Source: a virus
Virus record (IMG/VR): IMGVR_UViG_3300029266_000174
Location: 1 to 30,167 of that record
DNA length: 30,167 bases
Direction: 5' to 3' (one strand)
The notes under the pieces are model-generated. The model searched no databases and was not told where the DNA came from. It saw nothing but the letters and a program-made list of their open reading frames with translations. The position numbers were made by a program, and so were the translations under genes. This document shows, one piece after another, positions 2,510-30,167 of this stretch. The stretch's first letter is position 1. Each line of letters opens with the position of its first letter.

Positions 2510-2911
2510 TTAACGCCCATTATAATATCCTAAGTATCCTTTGGAATGATATTCAGCTTCTAGAGCTTTAGCTTCCTCTCTTGTCTTGTATTTACCTATA
2601 ATTTGTACATTAGAAACATCTCTGCCGTTTTCACTCTTGTGGACTCCAAGCCTAGAATATAAGCAGTTGGTCTGCCCCACGTAATTTTCATTAACTAAAA
2701 GATATACAGTAAATAAGCCATCTTTTTTAGATTCGTTAAAAGTTTTATCAATAGCATCTTTCCTTTCTTTATTAGCTTCCTGCCAAACTCTCATTTGAGC
2801 CAAGCGTTTTTCTTTGTTCTTTTCGTAGCACTTTTTATTAGCAGCAGCTTTCTTTTCTTTATTATCTAAATAGTACTTTTTGTAATATTCTTTTGTTTCT
2901 TCTTTTGTCAT
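2510..2911 (-). CDS. GIY-YIG endonuclease, homing-type, the only minus-strand gene
   Basis: 133 residues from the ATG at 2911; an upstream in-frame ATG at 3043 would run back into the next gene and its promoter. The C-terminal half carries the GIY-YIG nuclease signature: TVY at 68-70 and YVG at 77-79, then Arg87, His91 and a late Glu (about 117-120). The N-terminal half is a basic helix with three NKEK/NKER motifs at residues 17, 32 and 47, exactly 15 apart, probably a DNA-binding repeat. The gene faces all its neighbours, has its own host-type promoter (2926-2956) and sits between capsid/tail and portal genes, which fits a free-standing homing endonuclease. Its target is unknown. Confidence 0.85.
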   Translation of the reverse strand: MTKEETKEYYKKYYLDNKEKKAAANKKCYEKNKEKRLAQMRVWQEANKERKDAIDKTFNESKKDGLFTVYLLVNENYVGQTNCLYSRLGVHKSENGRDVSNVQIIGKYKTREEAKALEAEYHSKGYLGYYNGR

Positions 2912-2925
2912 AATATCTGTTTTTA

Positions 2926-2956
2926 CAAATATATAAAACTTTTTTAAATTAACAAA
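2926..2956 (-). promoter_or_regulatory. Host-type (Bacteroidota) promoter for the GIY-YIG gene
   Basis: On the minus strand TTTG (2956-2953) is followed by exactly 19 bases and TATATTTG (2933-2926), a full match to the Bacteroidota housekeeping pattern TTTG-N19-TAnnTTTG. It lies 15 bases upstream of the ATG at 2911. Its -33 box is the reverse complement of part of the plus-strand late motif at 2951-2956, so the two promoters overlap. Confidence 0.75.
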
Positions 2957-2981
2957 ATAGGTAAAAAAGTATTGTATATAT
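2951..2981 (+). promoter_or_regulatory. Phage late promoter motif, copy A (portal operon)
   Basis: AACAAA at 2951-2956, 14 bases, then ATTGT at 2971-2975 and an A/T run leading directly into ATG at 2982. The arrangement is shared at identical spacing with 18285, 20427, 28543 and 29841. If ATTGT is the -10 region, the expected transcription start falls at or next to the A of the start codon. Confidence 0.7.
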
Positions 2982-3338
2982 ATGATAATACTACAAAGCT
3001 CTACAAATGCACAAACTTTTAGTTTTATTCCTAGAGAATACACCCAAGGGACTACATATTCTATTAAAATAAAAGATGAAAGTTCAAACTCAGAGGCTTT
3101 TACAGCTACAACTACAACATTTACAGCTGTAGATTATTATTATCAATATAGTGCTTCTTTTGTTTTAAACAGTAAAACACTAAAACAAAATACAATGTAT
3201 ATGTTAGAAATTAAAGATGGAAATAATGTTGTTTTTAAAGACAAAGTATTCTGCACAAATCAAAACGTTACAACTTATAGTGTAAATAATTCTGCTTATA
3301 CAAGCAACACAATAGCTAATGACTTTATAGTATTATAA
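2982..3338 (+). CDS. Small beta-rich protein at the head of the portal operon
   Basis: 118 residues, Thr/Ser/Asn/Tyr-rich, with alternating hydrophobic and polar residues that suggest an immunoglobulin-like or other beta sandwich (for example TYSIKIKDESS and MYMLEIKDGNNVVFKDKVF). No signal peptide or catalytic motif is visible. The stop overlaps the portal start by one base (TAATG), so the two are translationally coupled. It begins directly after late motif A with no leader. The position before the portal suggests a virion protein or an assembly factor, but I do not recognise the family. Confidence 0.6.
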   Translation: MIILQSSTNAQTFSFIPREYTQGTTYSIKIKDESSNSEAFTATTTTFTAVDYYYQYSASFVLNSKTLKQNTMYMLEIKDGNNVVFKDKVFCTNQNVTTYSVNNSAYTSNTIANDFIVL

Positions 3339-13059: not shown

Positions 13060-13275
13060 ATGATTACATTTTTAGCCATATTGATTTTAGCAGCAATTTT
13101 AATAATCTTTATATCTCAACAAGTAGATGCTGATATTCACATACAGCCTATAGTGGGATTAATGTTTGGTGCTTTATATTCTAAAGAAAACCTTGAAGAT
13201 GATTTGGTACAGTACACTATGCAATGCTGCATAGCTTTTATGAGTTTAACAATTATATGGATAGAGAAGAAATAG
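13060..13275 (+). CDS. Small membrane protein
   Basis: 71 residues from ATG 13060; an upstream ATG at 12979 would overlap the helicase. Membrane segments lie at about 2-19 (ITFLAILILAAILIIFIS) and 53-67 (CCIAFMSLTIIW), with a conserved-looking MFGALYSKENLEDDL link between them. The 3' end overlaps the sigma factor start by 19 bases. I associate similar two-helix proteins with Bacteroidota phages. Function unknown. Confidence 0.65.
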   Translation: MITFLAILILAAILIIFISQQVDADIHIQPIVGLMFGALYSKENLEDDLVQYTMQCCIAFMSLTIIWIEKK

Positions 13276-13808
13276 ATTGGTTAAAAATTGTTGCAAGTCA
13301 GCACGAAGACTGGATTAAAATAGTAAATGGATTTGGAGAGTTTAACTATGCAGAAGACATAGTCCAAGAAAGTTATATACGATTATTTTTATATGCAAAA
13401 CCAGAGAACATTATTAAAGGTAACAAAGTATCTAGAGGGTATATGTTTTTTACTCTCCGTTCATTATACTTTCAATATTATAATTCTAAGAGAAAAATTA
13501 CTAAAGTTAGTATTGATGATGAAGAAAACTTTTTACAGATAGCAGATCAAACCAATTTAGAAGAACAAGAAGCTTTTAACAAAGTTTGTGTTTTAATTGA
13601 TGAGGTTGCAGAGGAATGGAATTGGTACGACAGAAAGCTGTTTAAATTGTACCGAGATACTGATTTAAGTATTAGAAAGATAGCATCAGAAACAAGTATA
13701 AGCTGGGTATCTATATTTAACACCTTAAAAAATTGTAAAACCGACGTCCAAAGTAAGTTAGGTGAAACTTATGAGGATTTTAAAAACGAAGATTATGACA
13801 GAATTTAA
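13257..13808 (+). CDS. Sigma-70-like RNA polymerase sigma factor (sigma2-sigma4 type)
   Basis: 183 residues from ATG 13257; an earlier in-frame ATG (13224) would lie deeper in the preceding gene. Region 2 is visible at about 15-80: YAEDIVQESYIRLFLYAKPE with the typical E/D-D-x-x-Q-E pattern, then GYMFFTLRSLYFQYYNSKRK. Region 4 lies at about 125-170: DRKLFKLYRDTDLSIRKIA and a helix-turn-helix ETSISWVSIFNTLKNCK. Only sigma2 and sigma4 are present, as in ECF-type factors. It is the best candidate to read the non-host motif AACAAA-N14-ATTGT in front of the five late units. No anti-sigma partner is visible. Confidence 0.8.
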   Translation: MDREEIDWLKIVASQHEDWIKIVNGFGEFNYAEDIVQESYIRLFLYAKPENIIKGNKVSRGYMFFTLRSLYFQYYNSKRKITKVSIDDEENFLQIADQTNLEEQEAFNKVCVLIDEVAEEWNWYDRKLFKLYRDTDLSIRKIASETSISWVSIFNTLKNCKTDVQSKLGETYEDFKNEDYDRI

Positions 13809-16324: not shown

Positions 16325-17031
16325 GTTCCAGGTTAGAAGAAGAAAGACCTAAAAGATATAAAAGGAATGGAATTGAGATTGTAAAAGAGAAAACAGAAAA
16401 GCCTATAAAAAACAATAAAATTAAAAATACAATAAAAAAAGGATATGTTTTAAATCAAACCCAAGTTGATTTGTTAAAATCCACAAAACAGAAGAAAGCA
16501 TATAAAAATGTCCGACCGGGTTTTAAAGGTATGTTAACACAAGCTATTAGTAGGAAAAGAATTATTAATAAAAAACACCTTGATGGTATTAATGTAGCTT
16601 TAAAATTTACAGGAGTAACCAATGTATTAAAGTTTAAAAAAAAGCTAAGCCAAAAATCAAGTATTATACAAGTAAAAAGAGAAAACCCTAATCCTTTTGA
16701 AGAAGTATATAGTTTTTCAGAAGATAAACAATATAATGATTACATAAGGTCAGGTCTATGGAAAAGAAAAAGAAGGTATTTATTAAAAAAAAGAGGAGCT
16801 ATTTGTCAAAGTTGTGTATATATACCGAATAAATTAAGTGAATTACACGTGCATCATAGAACATATATAAATATTGGAAAAGAAAAAGAACAAGATTTAA
16901 CTATACTATGTAAAACTTGCCATAAAAACACACACGACAAATATACAATTAAAGAGCTTGAACAATTATATAAAAAAAGTTACGATAAAATAAACAACAA
17001 ACAAAAACAATTAGATTTGAAAAGAAGCTAA
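16321..17031 (+). CDS. HNH endonuclease with long basic N-terminal region
   Basis: 236 residues. The C-terminal ~90 carry an HNH nuclease: LKKRGAICQSC (Cys pair), HVHHRTYINIG, then DLTILCKTCHKNTH with the second Cys pair and trailing His. The ~135-residue N-terminal part is very basic (RPKRYKRNGIEIV, RKRIINKKHLDG) and probably binds DNA; I do not recognise it. It overlaps the methyltransferase start by one base (TAATG), so the two are co-expressed. A homing-type enzyme or a partner of the methyltransferase are both possible. The N-terminal region is unusually A-rich. Confidence 0.8.
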   Translation: MSSRLEEERPKRYKRNGIEIVKEKTEKPIKNNKIKNTIKKGYVLNQTQVDLLKSTKQKKAYKNVRPGFKGMLTQAISRKRIINKKHLDGINVALKFTGVTNVLKFKKKLSQKSSIIQVKRENPNPFEEVYSFSEDKQYNDYIRSGLWKRKRRYLLKKRGAICQSCVYIPNKLSELHVHHRTYINIGKEKEQDLTILCKTCHKNTHDKYTIKELEQLYKKSYDKINNKQKQLDLKRS

Positions 17032-17645
17032 TGATTACAAATGAAGATAATAAGCAGCTAATGGCTAGGTACGAAGATAACTACTTTGACCTAGCAATTG
17101 TTGACCCGCCATACGGAATAAATATAAATGTTAGTATGGGCAGAAGAAAAAACGATAAAAAAAGTAAGTATCATAAATTTGCTGGAGAAGATTCTAAAAT
17201 ACCAAGTGAAGAGTATTTTAATGAACTTTTCAGAACAAGTAAGAATCAGATTATATGGGGAGGTAATTATATGACAGATTTTCTATATCCATCATCTTGC
17301 TGGTTATTATGGGATAAAGGATTTTCTGAAGATGTTAGTTTTGCTCAATATGAATTAGCTTGGAGTAGTTTTAAAACAAGTGCTAAAAAGTATGATTTTA
17401 ATTCAGCGGCAAATAGAAACAGAATACATCCAACACAAAAACCTTTTCAATTATATGAATGGCTTTTAATGAACTATGCTAAAGAAGGGGACAAGATATT
17501 AGACACACACTTAGGAAGCGGATCAATAGCTTTAGCTTGTCATAATTTAGGATATGAACTAATAGCTTGTGAACTTGACAAAGAGTATTACGATGCAGCA
17601 ATCAAACGAATAGAACAACATAAACAACAAATAAGATTATTTTAA
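17031..17645 (+). CDS. DNA N6-adenine methyltransferase, beta class
   Basis: 204 residues. Motif IV DPPY is at 25-28 (LAIVDPPYGI), followed by QIIWGGNYM, the HPTQKP motif (133-138) and motif I DTHLGSGS (158-165) with ALACHNLGYELIACELD. The order IV - spacer - I marks a beta-class amino methyltransferase, which transfers a methyl group from S-adenosylmethionine to adenine (or, less likely, cytosine). It is shorter than many full beta enzymes. The recognition site cannot be read from sequence. GATC is strikingly rare in this genome. It pairs with the HNH gene upstream and sits directly before the DnaA-like gene. Confidence 0.88.
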   Translation: MITNEDNKQLMARYEDNYFDLAIVDPPYGININVSMGRRKNDKKSKYHKFAGEDSKIPSEEYFNELFRTSKNQIIWGGNYMTDFLYPSSCWLLWDKGFSEDVSFAQYELAWSSFKTSAKKYDFNSAANRNRIHPTQKPFQLYEWLLMNYAKEGDKILDTHLGSGSIALACHNLGYELIACELDKEYYDAAIKRIEQHKQQIRLF

Positions 17646-18182
17646 ATGAATAAATTAAGCAAAGAAGTAGTAGTAAACAAAACAGAACTATTAAAATACC
17701 TAATAAAAAAAACTCTTAAAAAAGATGTCAACTTAGTAGGAAGGGAGAACTTATTAGTAGAAGCTAGATTTATATACTTTTACATCCTAAGAAATAAAGA
17801 GAAAATGGTATATCAAAAGATAGCAGATACTGTTGGAATGAATCACGCTTCTGTTTTACACGGATATAACAAAGCAGAGTTGTGGATGGAAAACGATTTT
17901 AATTTTAAAAACAAGTACCTAACAATACTGGCTTCCTATTCTCGATGGGTATATGGAGCTACAGCAGAAGACGAAGTGCTAAAAAAGATTCAAGTTGTTA
18001 AAGAACCAAAAGAGTATATAGAAGACAAGACATTGAGACCAATGAAAAGAATAGCAACAGTTTACACTAAATTACATTCACTAATAGACAAAACACCAGA
18101 AGACAAAGCAGATGACTTACTAACAAGGGTAGAAGCTATTTATAATATGATGCAAAGCGACTTAAAAAGAAAGCGGATATGA
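17646..18182 (+). CDS. DnaA domain IV-like DNA-binding protein
   Basis: 178 residues. Residues about 38-78 (VEARFIYFYILRNKEKM, then KIADTVGMNHASVLHGYNKA) follow the helix-turn-helix of DnaA domain IV: an Arg on the first helix, a degenerate basic loop, and N-H-A-S-V-L-H in place of the D-H-T-T-V-x-H signature that reads DnaA boxes. No AAA+ ATPase domain is present, so this is a stand-alone origin-binding-type module. The C-terminal ~80 residues are helical and unknown. It could direct replication or regulate transcription. The start follows the methyltransferase stop at once. Confidence 0.7.
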   Translation: MNKLSKEVVVNKTELLKYLIKKTLKKDVNLVGRENLLVEARFIYFYILRNKEKMVYQKIADTVGMNHASVLHGYNKAELWMENDFNFKNKYLTILASYSRWVYGATAEDEVLKKIQVVKEPKEYIEDKTLRPMKRIATVYTKLHSLIDKTPEDKADDLLTRVEAIYNMMQSDLKRKRI

Positions 18183-18286
18183 TGGGTTCATTTTTATTAT
18201 TATTTTTATTAGTATGGGTAATTATATTTGCTTCCTTATGGGTTTGGTACGAAGATTACTACAACAACAAAGACAAGGACTTTTAA
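18179..18286 (+). CDS. 35-residue membrane peptide
   Basis: MMGSFLLLFLLVWVIIFASL then WVWYEDYYNNKDKDF: one membrane helix followed by an acidic/aromatic tail. It starts with an ATGA overlap on the DnaA-like gene. Its stop codon shares bases with the late promoter motif at 18285, so it is the last gene of the early block. Function unknown; position and overlap argue for a real gene, while its small size keeps some doubt. Confidence 0.5.
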   Translation: MMGSFLLLFLLVWVIIFASLWVWYEDYYNNKDKDF

Positions 18287-18315
18287 CAAAAGCCTGATAT
18301 TATTATTGTTATAGT
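18285..18315 (+). promoter_or_regulatory. Phage late promoter motif, copy E (terminase operon)
   Basis: AACAAA at 18285-18290, 14 bases, ATTGT at 18305-18309 followed by TATAG. Spacing is identical to the other four copies. Here no start codon lies 11 bases after ATTG; the terminase ATG is at 18335, about 19 bases past the expected start of transcription. This copy shows that the motif acts on DNA and is not tied to translation initiation. Confidence 0.7.
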
Positions 18316-18581: not shown

Positions 18582-19751
18582 ATGCAGGTAAAGAAAACCG
18601 AAGCACTTACTAAATTAAGAAACCTCAACAGCAGAACTAAGATTGTTAGGGGTGGAACAAGTGCAGGTAAAACTATGTGCATCTTATTAATCTTGATTGA
18701 TTACGCAATAAGAAACAAAGGAAAAGAAATTAGTGTAGTATCTGAATCAATACCTCATCTACGTAGAGGTGCTTTTAAAGACTTCTTAGCAATACTAAAA
18801 GGATTAAATAGGTATAAGGACAGCCAATTAAATAAGAGTACCTTAAAATACACCTTTACAAATGGAAGCTACGTAGAGTTCTTTAGTACAGACCAGCCAG
18901 ATAAACTAAGAGGAGCAAGAAGAACAGACCTATATATTAATGAGTGTAACAATATACCCTTTGATGCTTACCAACAATTAGTAGTAAGAACGTCTGGAAA
19001 CATTTGGTTAGATTATAATCCATCTGCTTTGTTTTGGGTAGACAAGGAATTAATAGGAAAAGAAGATACAGACTTTGTGACACTAACCTATAAAGACAAT
19101 GATTCACTTCCTGAAAACATTGTAACAGAGATTGAAAAGGCAAGAGATAAAGCTAAGACATCTACATACTGGTCTAATTGGTGGAGAGTATATGGACTAG
19201 GAGAAGTAGGAAGCTTAGAGGGTGCTTGTATACCCGACTGGAAAGAGATTGACACAATACCACAAGAAGCAAGACTACTTGGACACGGACTTGATTTTGG
19301 CTACTCGGTAGACCCAAGTACGATTATTTCTTTATACAAGTGGAATAATGCTTACATATACGATGAAGTACTATATAAGAAAGGAATGCTTAACAGGGAT
19401 ATAAGTAGATTCTTAGAATCAAATGATATAAGAGAAAGTATTACGGCAGATAGTGCTGAACCAAAATCAATAGCAGAATTACAAGGTTACGGTCATAACA
19501 TACACGGAGTATCTAAAGGAAGGGACTCAATAGTATATGGTTTAAACCTAATGAATCAAAACGAGATATACGTTACAAGCCGTTCTAAGAACCTTAAAAG
19601 AGAATTAGGTGGTTATATATGGGCAACAGATAAAGAGGGCAACAAGACCCAGAAACCAAGTGGACTACATCCTGATTGTATTGATGCTGCTCGGTACATA
19701 TTAACAGACACTTTAGAGAACCCTAATAAAGGGCAATATTACATTTATTAA
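18582..19751 (+). CDS. terL: Terminase large subunit
   Basis: 389 residues with a full packaging motor. The ATPase has Walker A GGTSAGKT (24-31) and Walker B with catalytic Glu (LYINECN, Glu121). The RNase H-like nuclease has Asp238 in GHGLDFGYSVDP, Asp290 in ITADSAEP and a final acidic pair in HPDCIDAARY. It cuts concatemers and pumps DNA into the prohead through the portal. It begins one base after the small subunit stop. The gene is transcribed from late copy E and ends 18 bases before the promoter of the moron-like cassette. Confidence 0.93.
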   Translation: MQVKKTEALTKLRNLNSRTKIVRGGTSAGKTMCILLILIDYAIRNKGKEISVVSESIPHLRRGAFKDFLAILKGLNRYKDSQLNKSTLKYTFTNGSYVEFFSTDQPDKLRGARRTDLYINECNNIPFDAYQQLVVRTSGNIWLDYNPSALFWVDKELIGKEDTDFVTLTYKDNDSLPENIVTEIEKARDKAKTSTYWSNWWRVYGLGEVGSLEGACIPDWKEIDTIPQEARLLGHGLDFGYSVDPSTIISLYKWNNAYIYDEVLYKKGMLNRDISRFLESNDIRESITADSAEPKSIAELQGYGHNIHGVSKGRDSIVYGLNLMNQNEIYVTSRSKNLKRELGGYIWATDKEGNKTQKPSGLHPDCIDAARYILTDTLENPNKGQYYIY

Positions 19752-20426: not shown

Positions 20427-20457
20427 TACAAATCAAAGGTTTTTTTATTGTTATAAT
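20427..20457 (+). promoter_or_regulatory. Phage late promoter motif, copy D (tail operon)
   Basis: TACAAA at 20427-20432, 14 bases, ATTGT at 20447-20451 followed by TATAAT, then ATG at 20458, 11 bases after the A of ATTG. This copy has T in the first position of the upstream box; the rest matches the others in spacing. It lies directly behind the cassette terminator. Confidence 0.7.
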
Positions 20458-29871: not shown

Positions 29872-30167
29872 ATGAAAGCAACAGATATGTTAAACAAAGT
29901 AAAAGAAGTTCTTGGGGTTGAATTATCCGAAGAAATTAAATTGGCTCAGGCTACACTAGAAAACGGGACTATAATTGAAGCAGAGGAATTTGCTGAAGGA
30001 AAAGAAGTTTTTATTGTAACTGATGAAGAAAAAGTAGCACTCCCAGTAGGAAGCTACAAATTAGATGATGGGCAAGAGCTTGTTATTGAAGAAGCAGGAA
30101 TTATTAAATCTATTGGAGAAGCTGTTGAAGAAGCTCCAGAAGAAGCTCCTGTAGAAGAAGAAGTTGA
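29872..30167 (+). CDS. Scaffold-like head protein, 5' part (gene spans the junction)
   Basis: The N-terminal part of the protein that continues at base 1-424 once the molecule is closed; the frame is identical (base 30028 equals base 2). It begins MKATDMLNKVKEVLGVELSE and contains a small beta domain (GTIIEAEEFAEGKEVFIVTD, then VALPVGSYKLDDGQ and LVIEEAGIIKSI) before the acidic stretch. The complete protein has about 192 residues. Start ATG 29872 follows late motif C at the standard 11 bases. Scaffold or capsid-associated role from position and composition. Confidence 0.75.
   Translation, partial: MKATDMLNKVKEVLGVELSEEIKLAQATLENGTIIEAEEFAEGKEVFIVTDEEKVALPVGSYKLDDGQELVIEEAGIIKSIGEAVEEAPEEAPVEEEV
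30027..30167 (+). repeat. 141-bp terminal direct repeat, right copy
   Basis: Identical to bases 1-141. The unique sequence is therefore bases 1-30026, and the circle closes between 30026 and 1. Confidence 0.95.

Follow-up and report, generated by a model that had tools for sequence, protein, structure and literature searches.

Gene order around the locus

The window, 30,167 nucleotides of a marine Bacteroidota phage analysed at full length, begins and ends with an exact 141-base direct terminal repeat (positions 1 to 141 and 30027 to 30167), and one ORF continues across the join of the repeat. Because of this exact repeat the genome is probably complete, and the record is probably an assembly of about 30,026 bases that is complete and either circular or terminally redundant. 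The early region encodes an ERF annealing protein, a DnaB-like helicase, an ECF-like sigma factor, a PD-(D/E)XK nuclease, an HNH protein, and an N6/N4 methyltransferase. The methyltransferase is followed by the gene under study, which resembles domain IV of DnaA (the DnaA-IV gene), then by a 35-aa membrane-like ORF and the genes for the small (TerS) and large (TerL) terminase subunits (Table 1). The earlier note had described a phage with a short helicase and no polymerase, and both statements held: the 305-aa helicase lies in the replication region, and no polymerase-like ORF was seen among the ORFs of the window, as judged by size and reading, the early ORFs being no longer than 305 aa and the larger ones reading as structural or packaging genes. 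The sole clear minus-strand gene (2510 to 3043), by eye GIY-YIG homing endonuclease-like, lies between structural genes.

Table 1. Positions in the window of the DnaA-IV gene, its parts, and associated features
Feature	Position	Strand	Basis
Short DnaB-like helicase, 305 aa	12138..13055	+	PF03796, 27.9 bits (cut-off 27)
N6/N4 DNA methyltransferase, abutting the DnaA-IV gene	17031..17645	+	PF01555, E 3.7e-19
Stand-alone DnaA domain IV-like gene, 178 aa	17646..18182	+	ORF call; PF08299; profile E 2e-20; fold Z 16.3
DnaA domain IV fold, residues 11-103	17676..17954	+	AF2 pLDDT 93-98 (residues 11-100); 93 residues on 3pvp, 1.4 Å
Arg33, equivalent of E. coli Arg399, minor-groove reader	17742..17744	+	84/85 relatives; Arg399 role from PMC5742627
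NHASVLHGYNKAE, residues 66-78, start of recognition helix	17841..17879	+	Alignment with relatives
C-terminal helical tail, conservation confined to the window's clade	18045..18179	+	Identity to relatives' tails
35-aa membrane-like ORF between DnaA-IV gene and TerS	18179..18286	+	Read from sequence; found in relatives too
TAACAA-N16-TTGT element before TerS, candidate late promoter	18284..18309	+	Sequence, relatives
TerS-like protein, 81 aa	18335..18580	+	Position and synteny; no Pfam match
Terminase large subunit	18582..19751	+	PF17288, PF04466

Relatives of the window protein numbered 33 in viral contigs, at 49 to 100% identity, and many more were reached via the terminase; a scan of genome contigs for close family members found none. 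The gene has diverged to 49 to 66% identity, compared with often 80 to 90% for its neighbours. Among 108 terminase loci with upstream sequence, which are not all independent, some being the same contig fetched twice, a DnaA-IV-like ORF stood upstream of TerL in 105, mostly by 270 to 500 bases. Three loci had no such ORF; one of these contigs ends too early to tell, and another belongs to a more distant phage. The constant neighbour of the gene is the terminase, and the helicase lies several kilobases away. What is new here is that the gene is almost always present in a large group of marine phages and sits just upstream of terS-terL. The site directly upstream of it behaves as a cassette, in which single or tandem methyltransferases, thymidylate synthase-like genes, or other genes interchange (loci L198, L207, L233, L234, L237, and others).

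The protein as a DnaA domain IV lacking domains I to III

The 178-aa product had been described in the earlier note as a stand-alone DnaA domain IV-like protein without an AAA+ domain, and the profile searches agreed. Alone, the protein matched the Pfam family PF08299 (Bac_DnaA_C) with an E value of 1.7e-6 at 28.4 bits, slightly below the curated cut-off of 31.5, and the DnaA model TIGR00362 with an E value of 1.5e-6, the match covering only model positions 365 to 433 of 437 (the last ~69). PF08299 was matched by 49 of 49 diverse relatives, and hhalign, with a profile of 49 family members set against one of bacterial DnaA domain IV (13 Bacteroidota sequences plus E. coli), gave a probability of 99.3 and an E value of 2e-20 over 88 columns. 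Against the PDB, the family profile recovered DnaA 1j1v (E 7.6e-15). As a single query the window protein had no significant match in the PDB, PHROGs, or INPHARED, where matches needed profiles or diverged relatives as queries. Bac_DnaA_C was the sole Pfam family matched by the window protein itself, a RinA/ArpU-type activator profile not being among the matches of this single query. Domain I at the N terminus and the AAA+ domain III are absent, the protein being too short and no other domain being matched.

Structure prediction, which had been proposed along with the profile search as a check, likewise led to DnaA domain IV, so that the lack of a structural match, named in the earlier note as grounds for refutation, clearly did not occur. 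The AF2 model, built with relatives, superposed on 3pvp with a Z score of 16.3 and on 1j1v with 15.5 (90 residues, 1.5 Å); the top six entries in the structure comparison were all DnaA, and the best non-DnaA entry reached 6.6. Identity to the solved domain IV structures was 14 to 18%. The likeness to DnaA domain IV (PF08299; 1j1v, 3pvp, 8btg) lies in the fold over ~93 residues, in the equivalents of Arg399, Arg407, and His434, and in the recognition-helix sequence, whereas the window protein lacks domains I to III, has Asn in place of Asp433, and carries an N-terminal strip and a C-terminal helical tail of its own. The profile, residue, AF2, and superposition results together establish fold and homology, and the window protein can be taken with virtual certainty as a genuine DnaA domain IV that lacks domains I to III.

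E. coli DnaA reads its box with Arg399 in the minor groove and with the helix 434-451 in the major groove (PMC5742627). The equivalents of Arg399, Arg407, and His434 were kept in 84, 85, and 85 of 85 distinct relatives, respectively. In NHASVLHGYNKAE, the window protein has Asn66, His67, Ala68, and Ser69 at the positions of Asp433, His434, Thr435, and Thr436 (E. coli numbering). Across the 85 relatives, the Asp433 position was D in 49, N in 32, and H in 4, and the Thr436 position was T in 52 and S in 33, while the Thr435 position was mostly Ala, as in Bacteroidota DnaA. The box-reading residues are thus mostly kept, a pattern that would be permissive for reading of a DnaA box; the Asp433 position varies, and the target may therefore not be a DnaA box. 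That the protein binds DNA in a sequence-specific manner is very likely.

Within the protein, the linker was conserved least and the tail most: the tail was 66 to 98% identical to the tails of relatives, and the preceding linker dropped to 17 to 34% outside the closest relatives. Outside the window's clade, the 5' end of the DnaA-IV gene is overlapped or directly adjoined by an ORF of ~70 aa (75 hits). Members of the clade lack this ORF and have a longer tail on the DnaA-IV protein, which suggests that the tail may have replaced the partner ORF. An origin of the tail by fusion with a copy of the partner was considered, but HMM comparison did not support it (E ~0.5). The partner ORF (for example, L207:9103-9324, L220:9029-9241, and L233:8970-9194) is acidic, helical, and conserved, with a YEACAGILKAI motif, and matched no Pfam family.

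Short phage DnaA-like genes have been named before (PMC4615864, PMC6811365), among them DnaA of the HTVC010P pelagiphage group (PMC6811365), and short "DnaA" or "DnaA HTH" genes are annotated in Olleya phage Harreka_1, Flavobacterium phages, Polaribacter phages, and pelagiphages. The kind of gene is already known; the regularity of its gene order is new. The flavophage proteins (Harreka_1, Polaribacter P12002L, Flavobacterium phages tooticki and mumin, Leeuwenhoekiella Arctus_1, and Cellulophaga Nekkels) are likewise short and carry only Bac_DnaA_C, at about 25 to 41% identity over the domain to the relatives of the window protein, but their tails differ and, in the stretches read, their genes are not beside the terminase. 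Pelagiphages (HTVC010P group, Skadi) also have a short DnaA-like protein, although similarity is weak and hosts and gene neighbourhood are other; for Skadi-1 the absence of a DNA polymerase has been reported (PMC10504331). Some REP-type transposases carry a C-terminal Bac_DnaA_C-like domain, a box-reading fold outside DnaA (PMC6006769), which is fused to a Y1 transposase, unlike the window protein. In PHROGs, 8 of the 49 relatives matched families named replication initiation (PHROG 30669, 27829), names that reflect sequence likeness alone. The literature searched contained no experimental test of any stand-alone phage DnaA-like protein.

Candidate target DNA and the element before terS

DnaA-box-like repeats, which the earlier note had thought worth seeking in the phage, were not enriched: the window held 3 boxes compared with 5.0 expected (7 compared with 8.6 with one mismatch), and no enrichment was found in 46 related loci. 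An apparent depletion in relatives vanished against permuted control words (90, range 41 to 233). No conserved iteron array was found in the window and its relatives. A cluster of GCAGGTA in the terS and terL genes of the window was rejected as an iteron, being codon-driven and not conserved, and an intergenic dyad scan tried as a site finder gave terminators and a conserved coding stretch as its best signals.

Between the DnaA-IV gene and TerS, most loci carried a TAACAA-N16-TTGT element. On the plus strand of the window it occurs at 2950, 5673, 18284, 28542, and 29840, and probably also at ~20430 to 20457; besides terS it precedes the genes at 2982, 5705, 28574, and 29872, in all of which TTGT lies six bases before the ATG (four of the five copies). 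A spacing of 16 accounted for 34 hits in 27 related loci, compared with 1 to 3 at other spacings. The ends, AACAA and TTGTT, form an inverted repeat 21 bp apart. The element stayed unchanged while the recognition residues of the DnaA-IV protein changed. Other phages with a DnaA-IV gene showed no copy of it ahead of terS where the stretch read included terS. The ECF-like sigma factor (13224 to 13808) matched TIGR02985 with an E value of 7.9e-8, under the curated cut-off, and is conserved in the phage group; a tblastn search of INPHARED with it gave no match. We infer from sequence that the element may be a late promoter for this sigma factor rather than the binding site of the DnaA-IV protein; its geometry is ECF-like, and its products may be leaderless mRNAs. 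The stop codon of the 35-aa membrane-like ORF falls within the element. In relatives, the TerS leader just 3' of TTGT often carries, ahead of the start codon, either a TCATTAATGA palindrome or arms of the form AATCA...TGATT, which might fold into a leader hairpin.

Possible roles

Tentatively, and with less than even confidence, the domain and its tail are read as a phage replication-site recognition adaptor. A phage factor must select the start site, because the complete-looking genome has a DnaB-like helicase and no visible polymerase. The protein would act as domain IV plus a short helical tail, and itself has neither an ATPase domain nor one for oligomerising or helicase loading. It is predicted to bind a specific double-stranded site with DnaA geometry, one Arg in the minor groove and one helix in the major groove, and would thereby mark the phage site where replication starts. 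The tail or, in relatives, the small overlapping partner protein might then recruit the phage's own DnaB-like helicase or replication proteins of the host, so that the protein would serve origin recognition and not be a full initiator. In favour of this reading, families named replication initiation were matched by some relatives in PHROGs, and similar genes in isolates sit among replication or recombination genes: that of Arctus_1 overlaps a "DNA replication protein," that of P12002L lies two genes before a DnaD-like HTH replication protein, and that of pelagiphage HTVC034P is near a nuclease and an annealing protein. Near-universal presence in the phage group suits an essential role. Against it stand the lack of DnaA-box enrichment or a conserved iteron cluster, the variable residue at the Asp433 position, and the fixed proximity to the terminase, several kilobases from the helicase.

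A close second to replication-site recognition, although rather unlikely in itself, is a regulator of the early-to-late switch that would bind near the promoter before terS and turn late genes on or early genes off, possibly with the ECF-like sigma factor. RinA/ArpU-type activators turn on late genes in Gram-positive phages, and the DnaA-IV gene shares their placement as the last early gene, directly before TerS in 105 of the 108 loci; the conserved element lies between the two genes, its inverted repeat could fit a dimer, and DnaA itself also regulates transcription. However, the constancy of the element despite varying recognition residues and the failure to find it before terS in the other phages looked at fit such a regulator poorly; the element fits the ECF-like sigma factor better, and in isolates the DnaA-like gene is not next to terS. 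The more specific proposal, a detached DnaA box-reading domain acting as late-switch regulator with the sigma factor at TAACAA-N16-TTGT promoters in an uncultured marine Bacteroidota phage group, is unlikely.

The earlier note had suggested that the protein may recruit the replication origin machinery by mimicry or repress host initiation. The mostly kept box-reading residues would permit either, but DnaA boxes are not enriched, no conserved iteron array was found, and the constant neighbour of the gene is the terminase and not the helicase. Without an AAA+ domain, origin melting as carried out by DnaA is impossible. A protein that reads boxes and cannot melt DNA would block DnaA if it occupied the DnaA boxes of oriC, and a decoy or repressor of host replication of this kind would agree with the largely host-like box-reading residues (Arg399, Arg407, His434, Ala at 435, Thr/Ser at 436), with the unenriched boxes in the phage itself, and with the inability of the domain to initiate. 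It is nevertheless improbable: the window protein has Asn instead of Asp433, and a takeover gene that the phage could do without should show a patchier distribution than 105 of 108 loci. Least probable is a packaging factor, proposed because the downstream TerS-like protein has only 81 aa, in which the domain would be the DNA-recognition part of the small terminase and mark the packaging start site. The near-invariant gene order beside so short a TerS speaks for it, but similar genes in other phages lie far from terS, and no conserved repeat was found near terS, the codon-driven GCAGGTA cluster included.

The DNA-reading part of DnaA thus occurs alone in a large group of marine phages, nearly all of which carry the gene. 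Once found, the DNA that it binds would tell whether the reading code of DnaA serves here for the start of phage replication, for gene control, or as a block on the host.
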